A stretch of DNA of 64,000 bases. Source: Aequorivita sp. CIP111184 (lineage in GTDB: Bacteria; Bacteroidota; Bacteroidia; Flavobacteriales; Flavobacteriaceae). Of this stretch, positions 1 to 45,703 are shown piece by piece. The first letter of the stretch is position 1. Each line of letters begins with the position of its first letter. The position numbers and the translations under genes were made by a program. The stretch is from NCBI RefSeq assembly GCF_900489465.1, contig NZ_UEFQ01000016.1, positions 248,001 to 312,000 of the forward strand, in the 5' to 3' direction. The notes under the pieces were generated by a model. It searched no databases and had not been told where the DNA came from. It saw only the letters and a list, made by a program, of their open reading frames with translations.

Positions 1-1207
1 TTTCTGAAATATCCCACAACAATTTGGTGCTGAAATCATAAAAGCTGAAAGTTTCATCGGTAGCGATTGAAACATTATTCTCCGTGTTTTCAATATTCGA
101 AATTTCACTATCCTGAAAAATACGTTTAGTGTAATTTTTATAAATGGGTGATTCCCAAAGATGGTTGATTGATTTTCGTGCAGCAACTTGAATACCGAGT
201 TTTTTTGAAATGGGAAAATCTAAAAATCCATTTCCGTTAATCAAATTGAAACCAATTCCAGCTTCGATTTCCGAGGAAATGGTATTTTTTGAATGCATAT
301 CGATTACACCCGAAACTGCTTCGCCAAAACGGGCGTTAGTTCCGTTTTTATAGATAGTTATATTCTTGGTGATGTCTGGGTTTAGGGCCGAAATGAGCCC
401 AAAAAAATGTCCGCTTTGATACATCTTTATATTGTCCCAAAGCAATAGGTTTTCATCGTGAGTTCCGCCACGAATGTTTATGTTTGAAATGGTTTCATCT
501 ACACTTTCCACGCCTGGAAGAGCTTGTGCAATTTGCAGTACATCGTTTTCTACTTGTCCGGGAAGCAACCCAAAATGTTCTGTTGAAAGCAAAATGGACC
601 CGTCCAGATTTTTATCGATTCCTTTAGTGAAAATATTTTGAATCATAACAGTTTCCAATTCAGCCACCGATGGAACTAAAAGTAGGGCAGAACATTCATT
701 GGATAATTTGGAAGTGTTTTTTTTAATTGAAGAATAACCAACATACGAAATCGTATAGTTTATATTTTTGGTTTGCTCAGGAATATAAAAAAAACCTTCC
801 GCATTTGAGATGGTGTTGAACGAGTTGTTTTCCGAAATAATTGTCGCACCTTCCAATGGCAGCTGCGTTTCAATATCAATAATTCGTCCACAAAGACTGC
901 CTTTATTTTCTTTGGAAGTAATGGTAATATAGCGTTCGTTGATACGATTGTATAGCAGAGGAGTATTTTCAAGAAGATAGGAAAGAATAATTTCTATGGA
1001 TTTTTCAGTTTTTGAAAATGGCTTTAATACAATAAGTTCTACTTCTTCCTTTACGAATGAAAATCGAACATTATATTCCTTTTCCAACGATTTTAAATAG
1101 GGCAAAAGTGTAGTTTCATCAGTTTCTTGAGCAACGGATTTAGTTCCGAAAGCACAGAAAACTAATAGGAAAAAGAGTATTTTGTAGCTACTTGCTATTT
1201 TTGGCAT
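1..1207 (-). CDS. TonB-dependent receptor with STN-like domain, partial
   Basis: The frame opens at ATG 1207 and stays open through the left edge, so about 400 N-terminal residues are seen and the barrel is mostly missing. A signal peptide (about residues 1-27, ending KSVAQE) is followed by a secretin/TonB N-terminal-like domain (about 30-95), a carboxypeptidase-regulatory-like beta domain starting GSLCGRIIDIETQLPLEGA, and a plug domain (about 180-300) with the typical INIRGGTHDENLLLWDN and GEAVSGVIDM motifs. In this family the STN domain touches FecR and passes the ligand signal to the sigma factor. The start overlaps the fecR stop by 20 bp, which implies translational coupling. The ligand cannot be read from the sequence; the nearby lipoproteins may be partners. 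Confidence 0.9.
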   Translation of the reverse strand, partial: MPKIASSYKILFFLLVFCAFGTKSVAQETDETTLLPYLKSLEKEYNVRFSFVKEEVELIVLKPFSKTEKSIEIILSYLLENTPLLYNRINERYITITSKENKGSLCGRIIDIETQLPLEGATIISENNSFNTISNAEGFFYIPEQTKNINYTISYVGYSSIKKNTSKLSNECSALLLVPSVAELETVMIQNIFTKGIDKNLDGSILLSTEHFGLLPGQVENDVLQIAQALPGVESVDETISNINIRGGTHDENLLLWDNIKMYQSGHFFGLISALNPDITKNITIYKNGTNARFGEAVSGVIDMHSKNTISSEIEAGIGFNLINGNGFLDFPISKKLGIQVAARKSINHLWESPIYKNYTKRIFQDSEISNIENTENNVSIATDETFSFYDFSTKLLWDISE

Positions 1208-2114
1208 AAATGCTTACAACTCCGTTTTTATTTATATTATAGTTTAACTGAAGGGGCTCACAAATGGCTTTTAAGGCAAGGTCAAGATTTTCGTGGGTAA
1301 AACTCCCCGTGAATCTTTTTTCGGAATCAATATCTTCCAAAATGACTTTAATAGGATATTGTCTTTCAACTTCATTCAGCACAATTGGCAAAAGTGTGTT
1401 TTCAAAATTACTTTCGTTTGAAAGCCACACAGGCGAAGGGTTTTTGGTAGCTTCGTTAATTGCTAACTTTCCGTTTTTAATTTGTATTTTGCTTCCCGCG
1501 GGCACTTTTACAAGTGTATCATTGAAAGCTACACTAACCAAACCTTCGTAACAAGCGACCTCAAAAAATCCATCTCTCGCAAAAACATTGAACTGCGTTC
1601 CTAAAACACTTACAATACCTTCAACGGTTTTTACACTAAATTTATTTCCTTTTTTCACTTTGAAGTATGCCTCGCCATCCAAAGAGAGCGCGCGGGAATC
1701 AGACCAGTTTTTTTTGTTGTAGATGATTTTTGAACCTGCGTTTAGTACAACTTCTGAATTATCGGGCAATGAAAAAGTCTCGGTTTGCGCGATTTCAGTT
1801 TTTACCGAAGTGTCAAAAGTTGTTGTGTAATAATAGCCAGCCAGTAAAAACGCAAACACTGCAGCCACTTTCCAAACAACTGAAAATATGTTCGGCTTAT
1901 TAAGTTGGTGAACAGGTTTTAGTTGTTTTGAAATAGCTTCAAAGTTTGCTTCGCTGTTCATTTCAGGAACTTCAAAATTAGAACTGGCAGCCGCAATCTG
2001 AACATAGGAAGTATATTCTGGATCGGCTTTTAACAGTTCAAATTCTTCGGGAGTGGCTTCGTTGTTGAGCCATTTGTGCAATAAGTAATTTTTCTCCATA
2101 TTCTTTGTATTCAT
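1188..2114 (-). CDS. FecR-family anti-sigma factor
   Basis: This 308-residue protein has the family layout: a cytoplasmic N-terminal part that would hold the sigma factor, one transmembrane helix at about residues 78-96, a periplasmic FecR domain (about 105-215, with the SLDGEAYFKV and VLGTQFNVFA motifs), and a C-terminal DUF4974/STN-like domain (about 240-305, YPIKVILEDIDSEKRFTGSF). It would receive the signal from the downstream TonB receptor and control the ECF sigma factor encoded just upstream. A second in-frame ATG at 2099 (MEKNYLLHKW) is an equally good start. It would leave a short leader after the predicted ECF promoter at 2122-2147. Confidence 0.93.
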   Translation of the reverse strand: MNTKNMEKNYLLHKWLNNEATPEEFELLKADPEYTSYVQIAAASSNFEVPEMNSEANFEAISKQLKPVHQLNKPNIFSVVWKVAAVFAFLLAGYYYTTTFDTSVKTEIAQTETFSLPDNSEVVLNAGSKIIYNKKNWSDSRALSLDGEAYFKVKKGNKFSVKTVEGIVSVLGTQFNVFARDGFFEVACYEGLVSVAFNDTLVKVPAGSKIQIKNGKLAINEATKNPSPVWLSNESNFENTLLPIVLNEVERQYPIKVILEDIDSEKRFTGSFTHENLDLALKAICEPLQLNYNINKNGVVSIYAKNSK

Positions 2115-2121
2115 AAGTGAA

Positions 2122-2147
2122 ACAGCTGAAGTGTTGCTTACCCTACC
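2122..2147 (-). promoter_or_regulatory. candidate ECF-sigma promoter before fecR
   Basis: Read on the minus strand, GGTAGGG (2147-2141) is followed after exactly 15 bases by CTGT (2125-2122). The same two blocks with the same spacing occur at 2717-2742 and 5146-5171, each pointing at a gene start. The site lies in the 42-bp gap between the sigma gene and fecR. It would let the sigma factor drive fecR and the receptor without driving itself. The functional reading is inference. Confidence 0.6.
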
Positions 2148-2156
2148 TTTAAAATT

Positions 2157-2666
2157 TTAAATATTTCCAATTTCTTTCCGAAGCTTTGCTAAAGCTTGGC
2201 TCATACGCTTTTCCACTGCTTTTACAGAAATATTCAACATTTCCGCGATTTCAGCATATTTTTTTCCTTCTATTCTATTTAGAAGAAAAGCGGTACGTTG
2301 GGCTTCGGTAAGATTTTCAAGTGAATTTTTAAGCTTGTTGTGAAATTCTGTTTCTTCCATTAAAAATTCTGGAGACTGGAAATTGGTGTGGTCGGTTTGA
2401 GTTTTGGCATGTTTTAAAACCACTTTTTTGTGCGCCACTTCATTTAAAAAAGCATTGTTGCAAACGGTGTATAAAAATGATCTTGCTTTTTCTTTCGTTA
2501 TCTTAGCACAGTTTTGCCACAATTTTATAAAAGCCTCCTGCACCAAATCATCAGCTTGCGCGCCATCGCCACATTTAAAATAAATAAAACGCCAAACCGG
2601 CTTTCCATGAGTTTCATAAAGACGGTTGAATGTGTTTTCATTACAAACATTTTCAGGCTCTTTCAT
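2157..2666 (-). CDS. ECF (FecI-like) RNA polymerase sigma factor
   Basis: This is a 169-residue sigma-70 family protein with only regions 2 and 4. Region 2 is at about residues 10-80, with the -10 recognition helix segment GAQADDLVQEAFIKLWQ. Region 4 is at about 115-165, with helix-turn-helix EGKKYAEIAEMLNISVKAVEKRMSQALAKLRKE. It is followed by fecR and a TonB receptor, the standard order for a cell-surface signalling module. It should be held at the membrane by FecR until the receptor binds its ligand. A housekeeping-type -7 box precedes it, while the downstream genes carry a different motif. Confidence 0.95.
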   Translation of the reverse strand: MKEPENVCNENTFNRLYETHGKPVWRFIYFKCGDGAQADDLVQEAFIKLWQNCAKITKEKARSFLYTVCNNAFLNEVAHKKVVLKHAKTQTDHTNFQSPEFLMEETEFHNKLKNSLENLTEAQRTAFLLNRIEGKKYAEIAEMLNISVKAVEKRMSQALAKLRKEIGNI

Positions 2667-2685
2667 AAATGAGTTTGATTGAATT

Positions 2686-2693
2686 CAAATATA
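2686..2693 (-). promoter_or_regulatory. TAnnTTTG -7 box before the sigma gene
   Basis: TATATTTG on the minus strand matches the Bacteroidota housekeeping -7 consensus TAnnTTTG, 20 bases before the sigma factor ATG. No convincing TTTG -33 box is seen at the usual distance, so this rests on one element only. Confidence 0.4.
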
Positions 2694-2716
2694 TTTAAAA
2701 CTTTTTCAAGTTGATG

Positions 2717-2742
2717 GGTAGGGTATATTTTAATTTGTCTGT
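2717..2742 (+). promoter_or_regulatory. candidate ECF-sigma promoter before first repeat lipoprotein
   Basis: GGTAGGG (2717-2723), 15 bases, then CTGT (2739-2742), ending 30 bases before the ATG at 2773. It is identical in both blocks and in spacing to the sites before fecR and before the gene at 5204. The distance to the start codon is nearly the same as for the 5146-5171 site (32 bases). Confidence 0.65.
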
Positions 2743-2772
2743 TATTAATAGAAACCACTCAATATAGATGGT

Positions 2773-4536
2773 ATGAAAAAAATATACTTTATCCATTTTT
2801 TCGTTTTGCTTTTAATGAGCATTACTTTTTTTTCCTGCCAAAAAGAGGAAAAAGAATATATAGATGAAATTCCGGCAGATACAATAAAAGCAAGTTCACC
2901 ATTAACGAGTCTACTTTTACGAACCTCTCAAAATCCAGGCAGTTACGATGATATAATTGATGACAATGGTTGTGCTTCTGTACTTTTGCCAATTACTGTT
3001 TTTGCAAACGGACAACAGCTAGCGATAAATACTTCCGAAGATATTCTTTTGATCCAACAAATTTTCAATCAGTTTCCAAATGATACTGACACCTTAGAGA
3101 TAGCCTTTCCAATCAGCTTACAGTTGTTTGATTTTACACAAGTAATAGTTAACAACCAAAGTGAACTAGATGCACTTGCCGCCACTTGTGGTGTAAATGA
3201 TATTGAAATTGGATGTTTGGATTTTGTATATCCTATTTCTTTTTTCACCTATAATTCAGATCAGCAACAAACGGGTTCTGTTGTTGTTACTACTGATTTA
3301 GAACTTTTTATATTTCTGCAAGGCTTGGGACCTGATGATTTTATTAGTCTAGATTTCCCAATTTCGGTAATTCTCGCCGATGGTTCCACTACGGAAGTGA
3401 ACAGCAACCAACAATTGCAAAACTTGATTGCAGATTGTGTGGCAAATACAAATAATGACCCGATAGATATTTCACAATTTGAAGAAAATCTGACCACGGG
3501 AATTTGGTATGTGGAATACTTTTTTAATGATTATGATGAAACAGATAATTATGCTGGCTTTGAGTTTAGTTTCACTTTAAACGGAACGGCTCAAGCAGTA
3601 AATTCTGGAACAAATGTTCCTGGAACTTGGGCACTTGTTGATAATTTTAAATTCAATCTTTTCTTCGGAACAAATTCACCTTTGGATGAGCTTGATGAAG
3701 ATTGGGAAATACTAGAAGCAACCGCAGATATCATTAAGCTGAAACACATCAGCGGAAGTGATGGTAGCACAGATTATTTAACCTTTGGCCGCAATCCTAA
3801 TATTGGCGGAAACAATACAGAATTAAATCTTTTTATAGAAAACCTGATAACGGGAAGCTGGTTTGTGAACTTGTTGGAAGAAAATGGAACAGACCACACT
3901 GCAAATTTCAATGAATATGAATTTACATTTTTAAGAAATGGTGCTGCAACTGTTATAAGCAACAACAATACAATTAATGGTTTTTGGACTGCGGAAGTTG
4001 ATAGTGGCAATTTGGATTTCATTCTAAATTTTGAAACAACCACTAACGGTAGTTTTGGCGAACTGAACGACGATTGGGATGTGTTGGAAGCCACGCAAAG
4101 TATTATTCGCCTTTCTGACGTAAGTGGAGGCGGTGGCGGAACAGATAATCTTACTTTCGGCCGGGAGCCAAATGGTGGGGGCGGAGGTGGTCCCGATCCA
4201 CAAGAACTTCGTGATATTCTGCAATCGGGAACTTGGTATGTTGAAAAGTATTTGGACGATGGTGATGATGAGACTTCAGATTATTCCGGCTATGATTTTA
4301 CATTCTTTAGCAATCAAAATATTTTTGCCACAAATGGGTCGCAAAATGTGAATGGAATTTGGATTGTAACAGTGACAGGGCAAGAATTAAATTTTGAATT
4401 GGATATGGACAGTCCCATAAATGGCGCTAATGATGATGAGTACAAAGCATTGCAATATTCATCAACTTCGGTAACCTTCGTTACAAAAAATAGTGACGGT
4501 AATATTGAAGACACTTTAATTTTTAAAAAGAACTAA
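2773..4536 (+). CDS. repeat-built lipoprotein (three C-terminal beta-rich repeats)
   Basis: A 587-residue lipoprotein with lipobox SITFFSC at about residue 22, so it should be anchored to the outer membrane. Residues about 65-225 hold two copies of a module with a YPIS/LPIT motif, a Q-rich linker and a second FPIS motif followed by D/N-rich 'vNsnqqL' text. Then come three repeats of about 110 residues (about 237-345, 352-466, 476-587). Each repeat has a GxWyV start, a D-rich acidic turn, GtW in the middle, ELDEDWEIL-like text and an I/V-SGGDGGTDyLTF end, which recalls lipocalin-like beta-barrel repeats. The Gly-rich linkers between repeats are unusual. It heads a transcription unit with the gene at 4586. 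The function is unknown; its position suggests a ligand or partner of the TonB receptor. Confidence 0.85.
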   Translation: MKKIYFIHFFVLLLMSITFFSCQKEEKEYIDEIPADTIKASSPLTSLLLRTSQNPGSYDDIIDDNGCASVLLPITVFANGQQLAINTSEDILLIQQIFNQFPNDTDTLEIAFPISLQLFDFTQVIVNNQSELDALAATCGVNDIEIGCLDFVYPISFFTYNSDQQQTGSVVVTTDLELFIFLQGLGPDDFISLDFPISVILADGSTTEVNSNQQLQNLIADCVANTNNDPIDISQFEENLTTGIWYVEYFFNDYDETDNYAGFEFSFTLNGTAQAVNSGTNVPGTWALVDNFKFNLFFGTNSPLDELDEDWEILEATADIIKLKHISGSDGSTDYLTFGRNPNIGGNNTELNLFIENLITGSWFVNLLEENGTDHTANFNEYEFTFLRNGAATVISNNNTINGFWTAEVDSGNLDFILNFETTTNGSFGELNDDWDVLEATQSIIRLSDVSGGGGGTDNLTFGREPNGGGGGGPDPQELRDILQSGTWYVEKYLDDGDDETSDYSGYDFTFFSNQNIFATNGSQNVNGIWIVTVTGQELNFELDMDSPINGANDDEYKALQYSSTSVTFVTKNSDGNIEDTLIFKKN

Positions 4537-4585
4537 TAAAATCAAAACCCTAATAATTTAAACAATCAAATTAATTTTAATAACT

Positions 4586-5071
4586 ATGAAAACTATGAAA
4601 ACTATGAAAACAAAAATAGCCAGTATGTTTGTAATCATTATGTACATTGTCACTGTTGCGGCTTGTAACAAAGACGACAATAATAATTCGGAACAAAATA
4701 CAACGTTGCAACAGACCGAAACCACTGCCCAGTCGGGCTCTTGGAAGGTTACTTACTTCTTTGATACAGATCAAGATGAAACGAACCATTTTACGGGTTA
4801 TACATTTACTTTCAATGAAAACGGCTCCTTAGTAGCTGTAAATGGAAGTACTACAATTACAGGAACTTGGTCAGTAACTGATAGCAATTCTAGTGACGAT
4901 GATGGTGGTTCGACTAGTCCAGATTTCAATATTTTCTTTGCTTCTCCCCCAGATTTTGAAGACCTATCAGATGATTGGGATATTATTTCAGTGAGCAATT
5001 CAAAAATTGAACTGACTGATGTAAGCGGCGGCAACGGAGGTACAGACTTTTTAACTTTTGAAAAAATCTAA
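4586..5071 (+). CDS. single-repeat lipoprotein
   Basis: A 161-residue lipoprotein (VTVAAC lipobox at about residue 27) carrying one copy (about 48-161) of the same GxWkV ... GTWsV ... LSDDWDI ... DVSGGNGGTDFLTF repeat found three times in each flanking lipoprotein. It looks like a one-domain member of the family, made either by domain loss or as the ancestral unit. Its start has a short tandem MKTMKTMKT. The second or third ATG (4592, 4598) is therefore as good a start as the first. It lies 49 bp after the upstream lipoprotein with no promoter motif between them and ends at a strong terminator, so the two are probably co-transcribed. Confidence 0.85.
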   Translation: MKTMKTMKTKIASMFVIIMYIVTVAACNKDDNNNSEQNTTLQQTETTAQSGSWKVTYFFDTDQDETNHFTGYTFTFNENGSLVAVNGSTTITGTWSVTDSNSSDDDGGSTSPDFNIFFASPPDFEDLSDDWDIISVSNSKIELTDVSGGNGGTDFLTFEKI

Positions 5072-5097
5072 AAATTAATTTTCATCTATTATTTAAG

Positions 5098-5124
5098 ACC
5101 ATCCCACTTAAGGATGGTTTTTTT
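5098..5124 (+). terminator. intrinsic terminator after 4586 gene
   Basis: Perfect stem ACCATCC / GGATGGT with a 7-base loop, followed by a run of seven T. It closes the first lipoprotein unit and separates it from the second unit, which has its own promoter motif at 5146. Confidence 0.88.
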
Positions 5125-5145
5125 ATTTAAATAATTAAAATTTAA

Positions 5146-5171
5146 GGTAGGGTTTTATAAGAGTTGCCTGT
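5146..5171 (+). promoter_or_regulatory. candidate ECF-sigma promoter before second repeat lipoprotein unit
   Basis: GGTAGGG (5146-5152), 15 bases, then CTGT (5168-5171), 32 bases before the ATG at 5204. This is the third copy of the motif in this locus and lies directly after a terminator, where a promoter is needed. Confidence 0.65.
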
Positions 5172-8396: not shown

Positions 8397-8427
8397 TTTT
8401 AGTAGGGGGATCCATGCGATAGATTTG
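8397..8427 (+). promoter_or_regulatory. housekeeping-type promoter of the FAS1 gene
   Basis: TAGATTTG (8420-8427) matches TAnnTTTG exactly. TTTT at 8397-8400 differs by one base from the TTTG -33 box and is separated from the -7 box by the ideal 19 bases. The leader to the ATG at 8465 would be about 30 bases. Confidence 0.5.
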
Positions 8428-8464
8428 CGACTTATAAAACCTTAATAAACAAAACAATAAAACG

Positions 8465-9421
8465 ATGAAAAATTTCTTTAAAATTTCTTTAATCCTTTTC
8501 ATTACTTTGGGTATAGTCTCTTGTAGTGATGACGACGATTCAAACACAGATCCGCAAACGAACACGATTGCAGATTTTGTAGTTTCCAATGATGATTACT
8601 CTTCCTTAAAAGCAGCCTTAGATAAAGCTGGTCTTACAGCAACGCTTGCAGGCCAAGGAGAGTTTACTGTTTTTGCTCCAAATAATGCTGCCTTTGCAAC
8701 TTTTTTAAGTGCGAATGGCTTTGCCAGTTTAGATGAAGTTCCAACAGCTTTGCTAACCAATGTGCTATTAAACCATGTTGTGAGTGGTAAAGTAATGGCA
8801 GCAGATTTGAGTACTGGATATATTAACTCTTTGGCAACCGAAGCTTCTTCAGGTGCTAACTTGAGTATGTATGTAAACACTTCCTCTGGTGTAAAATTAA
8901 ATGGAATCTCCACTGTAACTGCAGCAGACATTGATGCAGATAATGGAGTGATTCATGCAGTAAACACTGTAATTGCATTACCATCAGTGGTTACATTCGC
9001 AACTGCTGATCCAACTTTTTCTACATTGGTGGCTGCTTTAACACGTGGAGATCAACCTGACTTTGTAGGTGTCTTATCTACTCCTGCGGGAACTGCTCCA
9101 GCACCTTTTACAGTTTTTGCTCCAACAAATGGTGCTTTTGTAGCACTCTTGGCTGAATTGGGAGCAAGTAGTTTAAACGATATTGATGGTCCTACACTAA
9201 CTGCCGCTTTAAATACACACGTTATTGCGGGTGCAAATGTACGTGCAGCAGATTTGGTAGACGGAACGGTAACAACACTTGGTGCAGACTTAGTGGTTGA
9301 CGCCTCAAATGCTACACTTACTGATGTAAACGAAAGAGTAAGTAATATTATAGTTGTGGATGTTCAAGCCGTAAATGGAGTTGTTCATGCTATCGATAAA
9401 GTGCTTCTTCCCCAATTATAA
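8465..9421 (+). CDS. lipoprotein with two fasciclin (FAS1) domains
   Basis: A 318-residue lipoprotein (lipobox LGIVSC at about residue 20, then an Asp-rich tether). Two FAS1 domains follow, at about 35-172 and 175-318. Each has the FTVFAPnNaAF (H1) and NGVIHAVNtVI / NGVVHAIDKVLLP (H2) signatures. FAS1 domains act in adhesion, between cells or to a surface matrix. The protein should sit on the outer membrane. It is a single-gene unit with its own promoter and a shared terminator behind it. Paired FAS1 lipoproteins are common in Flavobacteria. Confidence 0.93.
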   Translation: MKNFFKISLILFITLGIVSCSDDDDSNTDPQTNTIADFVVSNDDYSSLKAALDKAGLTATLAGQGEFTVFAPNNAAFATFLSANGFASLDEVPTALLTNVLLNHVVSGKVMAADLSTGYINSLATEASSGANLSMYVNTSSGVKLNGISTVTAADIDADNGVIHAVNTVIALPSVVTFATADPTFSTLVAALTRGDQPDFVGVLSTPAGTAPAPFTVFAPTNGAFVALLAELGASSLNDIDGPTLTAALNTHVIAGANVRAADLVDGTVTTLGADLVVDASNATLTDVNERVSNIIVVDVQAVNGVVHAIDKVLLPQL

Positions 9422-45091: not shown

Positions 45092-45703
45092 TTATAAATT
45101 TATTTTTGAGAATACATACTTCATTTCGGTCGCAATCTGCTCGCTGCGTTCCTTATAAACGTTCTCTTTTTGCGGAGTTCCATCTGAAATTTTTGGGTCT
45201 TTATACATTATGGAAATTCGTTTTTCCGATCCAGCAACAAATGGGCAACCAGCATCAGCCTGAGAGCAGGTCATTACTGCAGCAAAGCCACTTTTGGGGT
45301 TGGAATCGTCGTCATATTTTTTTGAAAAACCCAATATAGGTTCTTTGTCAATAGAATATTTAATGAGATAAACTGGGTTTTCTGCTGAGGTTTCTTTGGA
45401 AATTTGAAAGCCGGCATTTTTCAAAGTTTTCACTACCATTGGATAAACGGCTGTGGCTTCAGTACCACCAGAAAAGCAATTAATGTTTGGCACATCAAAA
45501 TAATCCGCCATAGTCTGTGCCCAGATCTGTGCTAAATGACTTCGCCGCGAATTGTGCGTACAGATAAAGTTGAGAAAAATCGGTTGATTTTGCGTTGATT
45601 TACTTTTTATATAATCAATCAAAGGCTTAAGCAACCCTTTTCGTTCTTCAGACAGGGTTGCCGTGTCCAGCTTTTCGATATAATTTTTTAGTTCTTTGAA
45701 CAT
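45092..45703 (-). CDS. arsC: arsenate reductase (low-molecular-weight phosphatase type)
   Basis: I place the start at ATG 45703 ([12 protein letters not shown]). The longer frame to 45751 would overlap arsM and begins with unlikely text. The 203-residue protein has the PTP loop with Cys48-x5-Arg54 ([12 protein letters not shown]), [11 protein letters not shown] with two further cysteines for the thiol relay, and the late YKDPK Asp. It reduces arsenate to arsenite, which Acr3 then exports. The reductant is probably thioredoxin, as in the S. aureus ArsC fold. It lies between arsM and acr3. Confidence 0.92.

Follow-up and report, generated by a model that had tools for sequence, protein, structure and literature searches.

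In the ferric citrate system of Escherichia coli, the promoter lies before fecA, and fecIR is not FecI-dependent. The genes for the extracytoplasmic function (ECF) sigma factor, FecR and the TonB-dependent receptor of this FecI-FecR-FecA system are clustered (PMC9249621), as they are at the locus described here. FecI-like ECF sigma factors are regarded as exceptions to autoregulation (PMC8103513). Predicting ECF-controlled promoters is challenging and calls for start-site data (PMC3878776); as of 2020 no motif was known for any ECF sigma factor of Bacteroides thetaiotaomicron (PMC7366714), and some have since been proposed (PMC12596196). Few promoters are defined for Bacteroidetes ECF sigma factors. 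Here we analyze a 64,000-nucleotide stretch of Aequorivita sp. CIP111184 (“the window”; contig NZ_UEFQ01000016.1, positions 248,001 to 312,000), which encodes a FecI-type ECF sigma factor next to fecR, a TonB-dependent receptor gene and three lipoprotein genes. Three copies of a two-box motif, GGTAGGG-N15-CTGT, lie at this locus, and the motif is very probably a core promoter (-35 plus -10) read by the sigma factor that is encoded between two of its copies.

Results

Three exact motif copies in the host genome

A preliminary description of the window had reported that exact copies of the motif occur only before fecR and before the lipoprotein genes at 2773 and 5204, and had taken these genes to be targets of the sigma factor. 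The three copies turned out to be the only exact ones in the host genome (3,536,078 bases in 44 contigs, possibly incomplete), all at the one locus (Table 1). A genome scan for random scatter of the motif found none, and the reversed pattern had 0 matches in the same genome. A dinucleotide model of the window's composition predicts 0.34 exact matches per genome and 0.006 per window by chance, and the Poisson probability of at least three within the window is ~4e-8. The preliminary reading of sigma factor and targets is supported.

Loose matches are little informative, since the excess they show is small: with two mismatches permitted, the window has 11 matches against 5.5 expected, a number reached by 2 of 100 shuffles. 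The looser RGTAGGR-N16-TGT did no better than its reversed control in the host genome (15 and 19 matches, respectively), so that no additional host targets can be named from it. A weight matrix built on 132 sites from relatives (one of them 99% identical in its sigma factor) separates the three sites clearly (scores in Table 1): the next best site in the window scores 8.8 (at 45696), and the lowest training site 16.3.

The gaps of 30 and 32 bases reported between the lipoprotein copies and the respective ATG were recomputed and are correct. Copy 2, divergent from the sigma gene, and copy 3 are the proposed promoters of the lipoprotein genes at 2773 and 5204. For fecR, the start first assigned (2114) is probably to be replaced by 2099, where the start codons of relatives align (MEKNYLLHKW in the window, MDKNYILHKY in locus L035); this places copy 1 at 22 bases from the ATG instead of 7. 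Copy 1 would be the sigma-dependent promoter of fecR and, because fecR ends within the receptor gene (overlap 1188-1207), plausibly drives both genes.

The motif is kept at related sigma genes

In a first survey, we searched 299 genomes of the family with the short pattern, found divergent pairs of copies ~570-615 bases apart and fetched 20 regions for holding the motif. In eleven of these, two copies bracket a related sigma gene; four have the exact copy on the fecR side only, one has exact copies on the divergent side only, and four have no sigma gene nearby. We then aligned 16 sigma proteins, 15 of them from motif-holding regions, and searched genome contigs for relatives; the best 80 of at least 551 matching loci were taken as the locus set. 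FecR follows the sigma gene in 78 of these 80, and a related receptor is present in 79.

With the strict pattern GGTAGG(A/G)-N15-NTGTT, 46 loci have the motif downstream of the sigma gene, 55 on the divergent side, 37 on both and 64 on at least one side. Its density in these flanks, 2.8 per kilobase and strand, compares with 0.009 in the remainder of the loci (18 matches), a difference of ~300-fold. After inspection of the 16 misses, the pattern was loosened to admit A at base 1, other bases at positions 6-7 and G as the second -10 base; the counts then rose to 62 downstream, 70 divergent, 56 both and 76 on any side. Across related sigma genes, the motif thus keeps its position, orientation and spacing. 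Before lipoprotein 3, the third promoter is present in 4 of 4 orthologues checked, 30-34 bases from the ATG.

One explanation for the likeness of the three copies is that promoter regions were duplicated along with the lipoprotein genes, which are paralogues, and share no function. We consider this very unlikely, as fecR is unrelated to the lipoprotein genes, the spacers of the copies are wholly different, and the boxes persist where sigma identity is only ~55%.

Shape and placement of the motif

The two boxes and the 15-base spacer of the preliminary motif stood; its extent and two of its letters did not. The majority letters at the sites of the 80 loci are (G/A)GTAGGGT(A/T)-N13-(C/T)TGTTnTA, and the full motif is about GGTAGGGT(A/T)-N13-(C/T)TGTTnTA, longer than first described. 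CTGT was too narrow a -10 block, since 6 of 6 other Aequorivita carry TTGT at this point of the divergent copy: the first -10 base is C or T, and base 7 of the -35 box varies by sub-clade. When spacers of 8-24 bases between GTAGG and TGTT were tried in the flanks of the 80 loci, a spacer of 15 accounted for 125 of 136 pairings, and any other length for at most 3. In loci L112 and L121, GGTAGTA can be seen by eye, followed by a spacer of 14 bases; these sites were left out of the counts.

The distance from the motif to the next long open frame is also short, with a median of 22 bases for copies facing fecR (5-45 bases in 59 of 61) and 27.5 bases for divergent copies (5-45 bases in 52 of 60). 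The motif is thus placed at core-promoter distance from start codons and resembles a core promoter. At the seven loci from Aequorivita, ~50 bases separate the start of the divergent motif from the sigma ATG, and the motif and the housekeeping box of the sigma gene stand back to back; these two promoters might interfere with each other.

Specificity for one sigma clade

By protein search, the host has nine ECF sigma genes, eight of which are only 24-33% identical to the clade sigma factor. In five other genomes of the family, 87 ECF matches were listed, 30 of them with loci; clade members there (46-72% identical) have the motif in 5 of 7 cases. More distant ECF sigma genes were without it (0 of 23 in the five genomes, 0 of 8 in the host), so a single clade sigma factor faces the three copies in the host. 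The extended form GGTAGGGTA-N13-CTGTTNTA has 43 matches in 31 of the 299 family genomes and 0 in the reversed control. Outside the family it was found in 0 of 192 genomes, both positives among the 198 genomes sampled from the class being family members. Among the genes sampled, the motif is confined to this sigma clade.

Several observations weigh against a promoter read by this sigma factor: (i) the short pattern occurs in 151 of the 299 family genomes, chance matches included, and its reversed control also has many matches; (ii) the host's three sites fail the stricter extended form; (iii) two of the seven clade members in the five other genomes show no motif copy, and loci L111, L112, L121 and L134 (4 of the 80) have none under the loosened pattern; (iv) the 80 loci are mutually related and come partly from the same genomes as the regions picked for the motif, and are not 80 independent events; and (v) in 4 of the 20 fetched regions (L046, L049, L053 and L054), an exact copy stands with no sigma, fecR or receptor relative in the region.

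The first of these is what one would see if the motif arose by chance. Chance is hardly credible as an explanation given three copies at one locus against 0.34 expected, 43 matches to the extended form against none, and the ~300-fold density in the flanks. The last fits an alternative in which some other regulator, a one- or two-component activator working with the housekeeping sigma factor, uses the motif as its operator, as operators would be found far from any sigma gene. We regard such an operator as unlikely: the motif has two asymmetric blocks at one fixed spacing and a fixed short distance to start codons, it brackets this sigma gene and not distant ECF genes, and its base 7 is tracked by sigma residues (see below). 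A core promoter read by the clade sigma factor is the reading that we carry forward.

Possible covariation of base 7 with the sigma factor

We compared the two copies within each of the 56 two-promoter loci with shuffled pairings, which ignore kinship. The copies agree in 54 loci at base 7 (mean of shuffles 36.7; 0 of 2000 shuffles reached the observed number), in 53 at position 8 (35.0; 0 of 2000), in 39 at the first -10 base (29.6; 2 of 2000), in 54 at the second -10 base (48.5; 2 of 2000) and in 46 at position 1 (39.3; 9 of 2000).

The helix of region 4.2 reads the -35 box. Sigma residues 148 and 156 fall in this helix by alignment to Bacillus SigW (5wuq). Among 84 sigma rows, 78 had one clear letter at base 7 and 2 were mixed. 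At residue 148, G goes with V (55) or I (6), and A with T (13), R (3) or V (1); residue 156 is S or H in 60 of 61 G-type and Y in 17 of 17 A-type rows. The same comparison gave no clear sigma residue for -35 base 1 or for the second -10 base. Base 7 is equally associated with residues outside the helix, for example 38, as would hold for any clade marker, and on the tree the A group amounts to three changes with just two independent pairs, too few to test base 7. That the clade forms a natural specificity series, in which sigma factors and promoters change together with G at base 7 in most and A in one sub-clade, is therefore a tentative proposal that we rate at somewhat below even. Loci L036, L037 and L040 each contain two neighbouring cassettes, one G-type and one A-type (Table 1). 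If the proposal is true, these paired cassettes are insulated duplicate circuits, and if the covariation with the helix holds, the clade offers ready-made orthogonal sigma-promoter pairs.

Targets and autoregulation

In 53 of the 80 loci, the divergent gene encodes a member of the same family of lipoproteins. A different protein of ~520-530 amino acids, with an N-terminal hydrophobic stretch, occupies this slot in L042, L043, L089 and the Aquimarina-like loci L104, L105, L107, L116, L127, L131 and L132. Elsewhere, the extended motif is also found upstream of other exported-protein genes. In three genomes of the family (L138, L139 and L146; motif at 1501), the gene that follows it after 74-112 bases encodes a Tat-signal protein rich in GYYGDG-like repeats. 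The exact copies in L046, L049, L053 and L054 precede exported-protein genes as well.

Further targets in the host were considered. Two lipoprotein paralogues elsewhere in the genome (C16:206168-206545 and C42:39471-39863) have no motif copy close by, the profile scoring at most 4 anywhere in their loci. A fasciclin-like gene at 8465 was a candidate through AGTAGGGGGATCC (8401) and was dropped, as the sites in the window other than the three copies all score at most 8.8 and the top one is that at 45696. The sequence upstream of this fasciclin-like lipoprotein gene, AGTAGGGGG (window 8401-8465), resembles a half-motif and has no score above 8.

In most loci, the sigma gene does not appear to be a target of its own motif: scoring found a copy aimed at the sigma gene in 2 of the 80 loci and pattern matching in 3, and in the window there is none. 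The exceptional loci with a copy directed at the sigma gene are L137, L095 and L103, where autoregulation may have arisen. The preliminary description had instead assigned a housekeeping -7 box to the sigma gene of the window, and this box is present there and in the other Aequorivita loci compared (Table 1). TAnnTTTG lies within 100 bases upstream of the sigma ATG in 39 of the 80 loci, compared with 6% of shuffles.

Genes of the locus

The sigma factor shares 99% identity with its counterpart in an uncultured Aequorivita and 85-91% with those of five other Aequorivita records; its match to TIGR02985, at 127.4 bits, is barely above the cut-off of 126.4. The whole receptor gene encodes 853 amino acids and extends beyond the window (L033:2646-5207). 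In its N-terminal region, FecR_C alone matched, below threshold (residues 37-96; 15.3 bits, cut-off 24.4), and a Pfam domain search found no match to an STN signalling domain. Pfam and NCBIfam searches assigned a function to none of the lipoproteins: lipoprotein 1 matched no family at an E value of 0.01, and lipoprotein 3 had a weak DUF4923 lipocalin-like match (17.8 bits, below the cut-off of 22.8).

Table 1. Coordinates of the sigma locus, its motif copies and related cassettes (window positions unless a locus is given).
Feature	Position	Strand	Remarks
TonB-dependent receptor, first part	1..1207	-	Pfam CarbopepD_reg_2, Plug, TonB barrel
fecR, anti-sigma/regulator	1188..2099	-	Pfam FecR and FecR_C above cut-off; start by comparison with relatives
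Motif copy 1, GGTAGGGTAAGCAACACTTCAGCTGT	2122..2147	-	Exact match; profile score 19.8; position and direction before fecR kept in relatives
ECF sigma factor, FecI-type, 169 amino acids	2157..2666	-	Pfam Sigma70_r2 and Sigma70_r4_2 above cut-off; TIGR02985
Housekeeping -7 box, TATATTTG (TAnnTTTG), upstream of sigma gene	2686..2693	-	Kept in 6/6 other Aequorivita loci
Motif copy 2, GGTAGGGTATATTTTAATTTGTCTGT	2717..2742	+	Exact match; profile score 32.9; divergent copy kept in relatives
Lipoprotein 1, 587 amino acids	2773..4536	+	Repeats related to products of 4586 and 5204
Lipoprotein 2, 161 amino acids, one repeat	4586..5071	+	Without own motif copy
Motif copy 3, GGTAGGGTTTTATAAGAGTTGCCTGT	5146..5171	+	Exact match; profile score 24.5; before 4/4 orthologues
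Lipoprotein 3, 501 amino acids	5204..6709	+	Related to the repeats of lipoprotein 1
Second sigma-fecR-receptor cassettes	L036:2351-2866, L037:14669-15184, L040:15733-16248		GGTAGGA-N15-TTGTT, versus GGTAGGG-N15-CTGTT in the first cassette

Discussion

The locus is best read as a putative relay of the FecI/FecR type, in which the sigma factor would drive its own regulator, the receptor and surface lipoproteins. A ligand would bind the TonB-dependent receptor, which would signal to FecR, and FecR would free or activate the sigma factor. RNA polymerase with this sigma factor would then initiate ~20-30 bases upstream of fecR (together with the receptor gene) and of the two lipoprotein operons. With the sigma gene itself on a housekeeping promoter, feedback would run through more FecR and receptor and not through more sigma factor. 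Sequence comparison shows the motif with its spacing, position and conservation and its restriction to the clade among the genes sampled; sigma dependence, signalling chain and feedback are what we infer from it. The regularity of the motif opens a poorly mapped group of gene switches to direct testing: candidate targets of the whole FecI-type clade can be listed from sequence across many genera, and three promoters in one genome offer a clean test.

In our literature search, we recognised no paper reporting this motif, and it may have been predicted earlier in an ECF reclassification. The textbook ECF promoter has AAC in the -35 box and CGT in the -10 box (PMC8103513), and the motif shares with it two boxes at a fixed spacing. 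AAC and CGT are absent: the -35 box is GGTAGG(G/A) and the -10 box mostly (C/T)TGTT (132 sites in 80 loci, some letters being fixed by the search pattern). Candidate SigW-1 promoters of B. thetaiotaomicron have a TGTT box near -10, as here (PMC7366714, PMC12596196). In the available portions of the same papers, a -35 box of the GGTAGGG type is not mentioned for PM2 or the SigW-1/SigH-1 promoters, and PM2 is connected to oxidative stress. Within the family, SM6 of Flavobacterium psychrophilum is likewise a promoter motif ascribed to ECF sigma factors; unlike in the window motif, its -10 box is CGT, and the genes that it drives are those of type IX secretion (PMC9723704).

Bacteroides ECF sigma/anti-sigma pairs that work with SusC-like porins (PMC3878776) resemble the locus in that the pair is coupled to a TonB-dependent porin; polysaccharide genes, in contrast, were not noticed beside the sigma gene of the window. 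For sigma autoregulation, a classical ECF trait, the window has no corresponding motif copy. Compared with FecI-FecR-FecA, the other targets proposed here are lipoproteins, with no iron transporter among them, and the proposed promoter sits between the sigma gene and fecR, which would make both the regulator and the receptor targets of the sigma factor.

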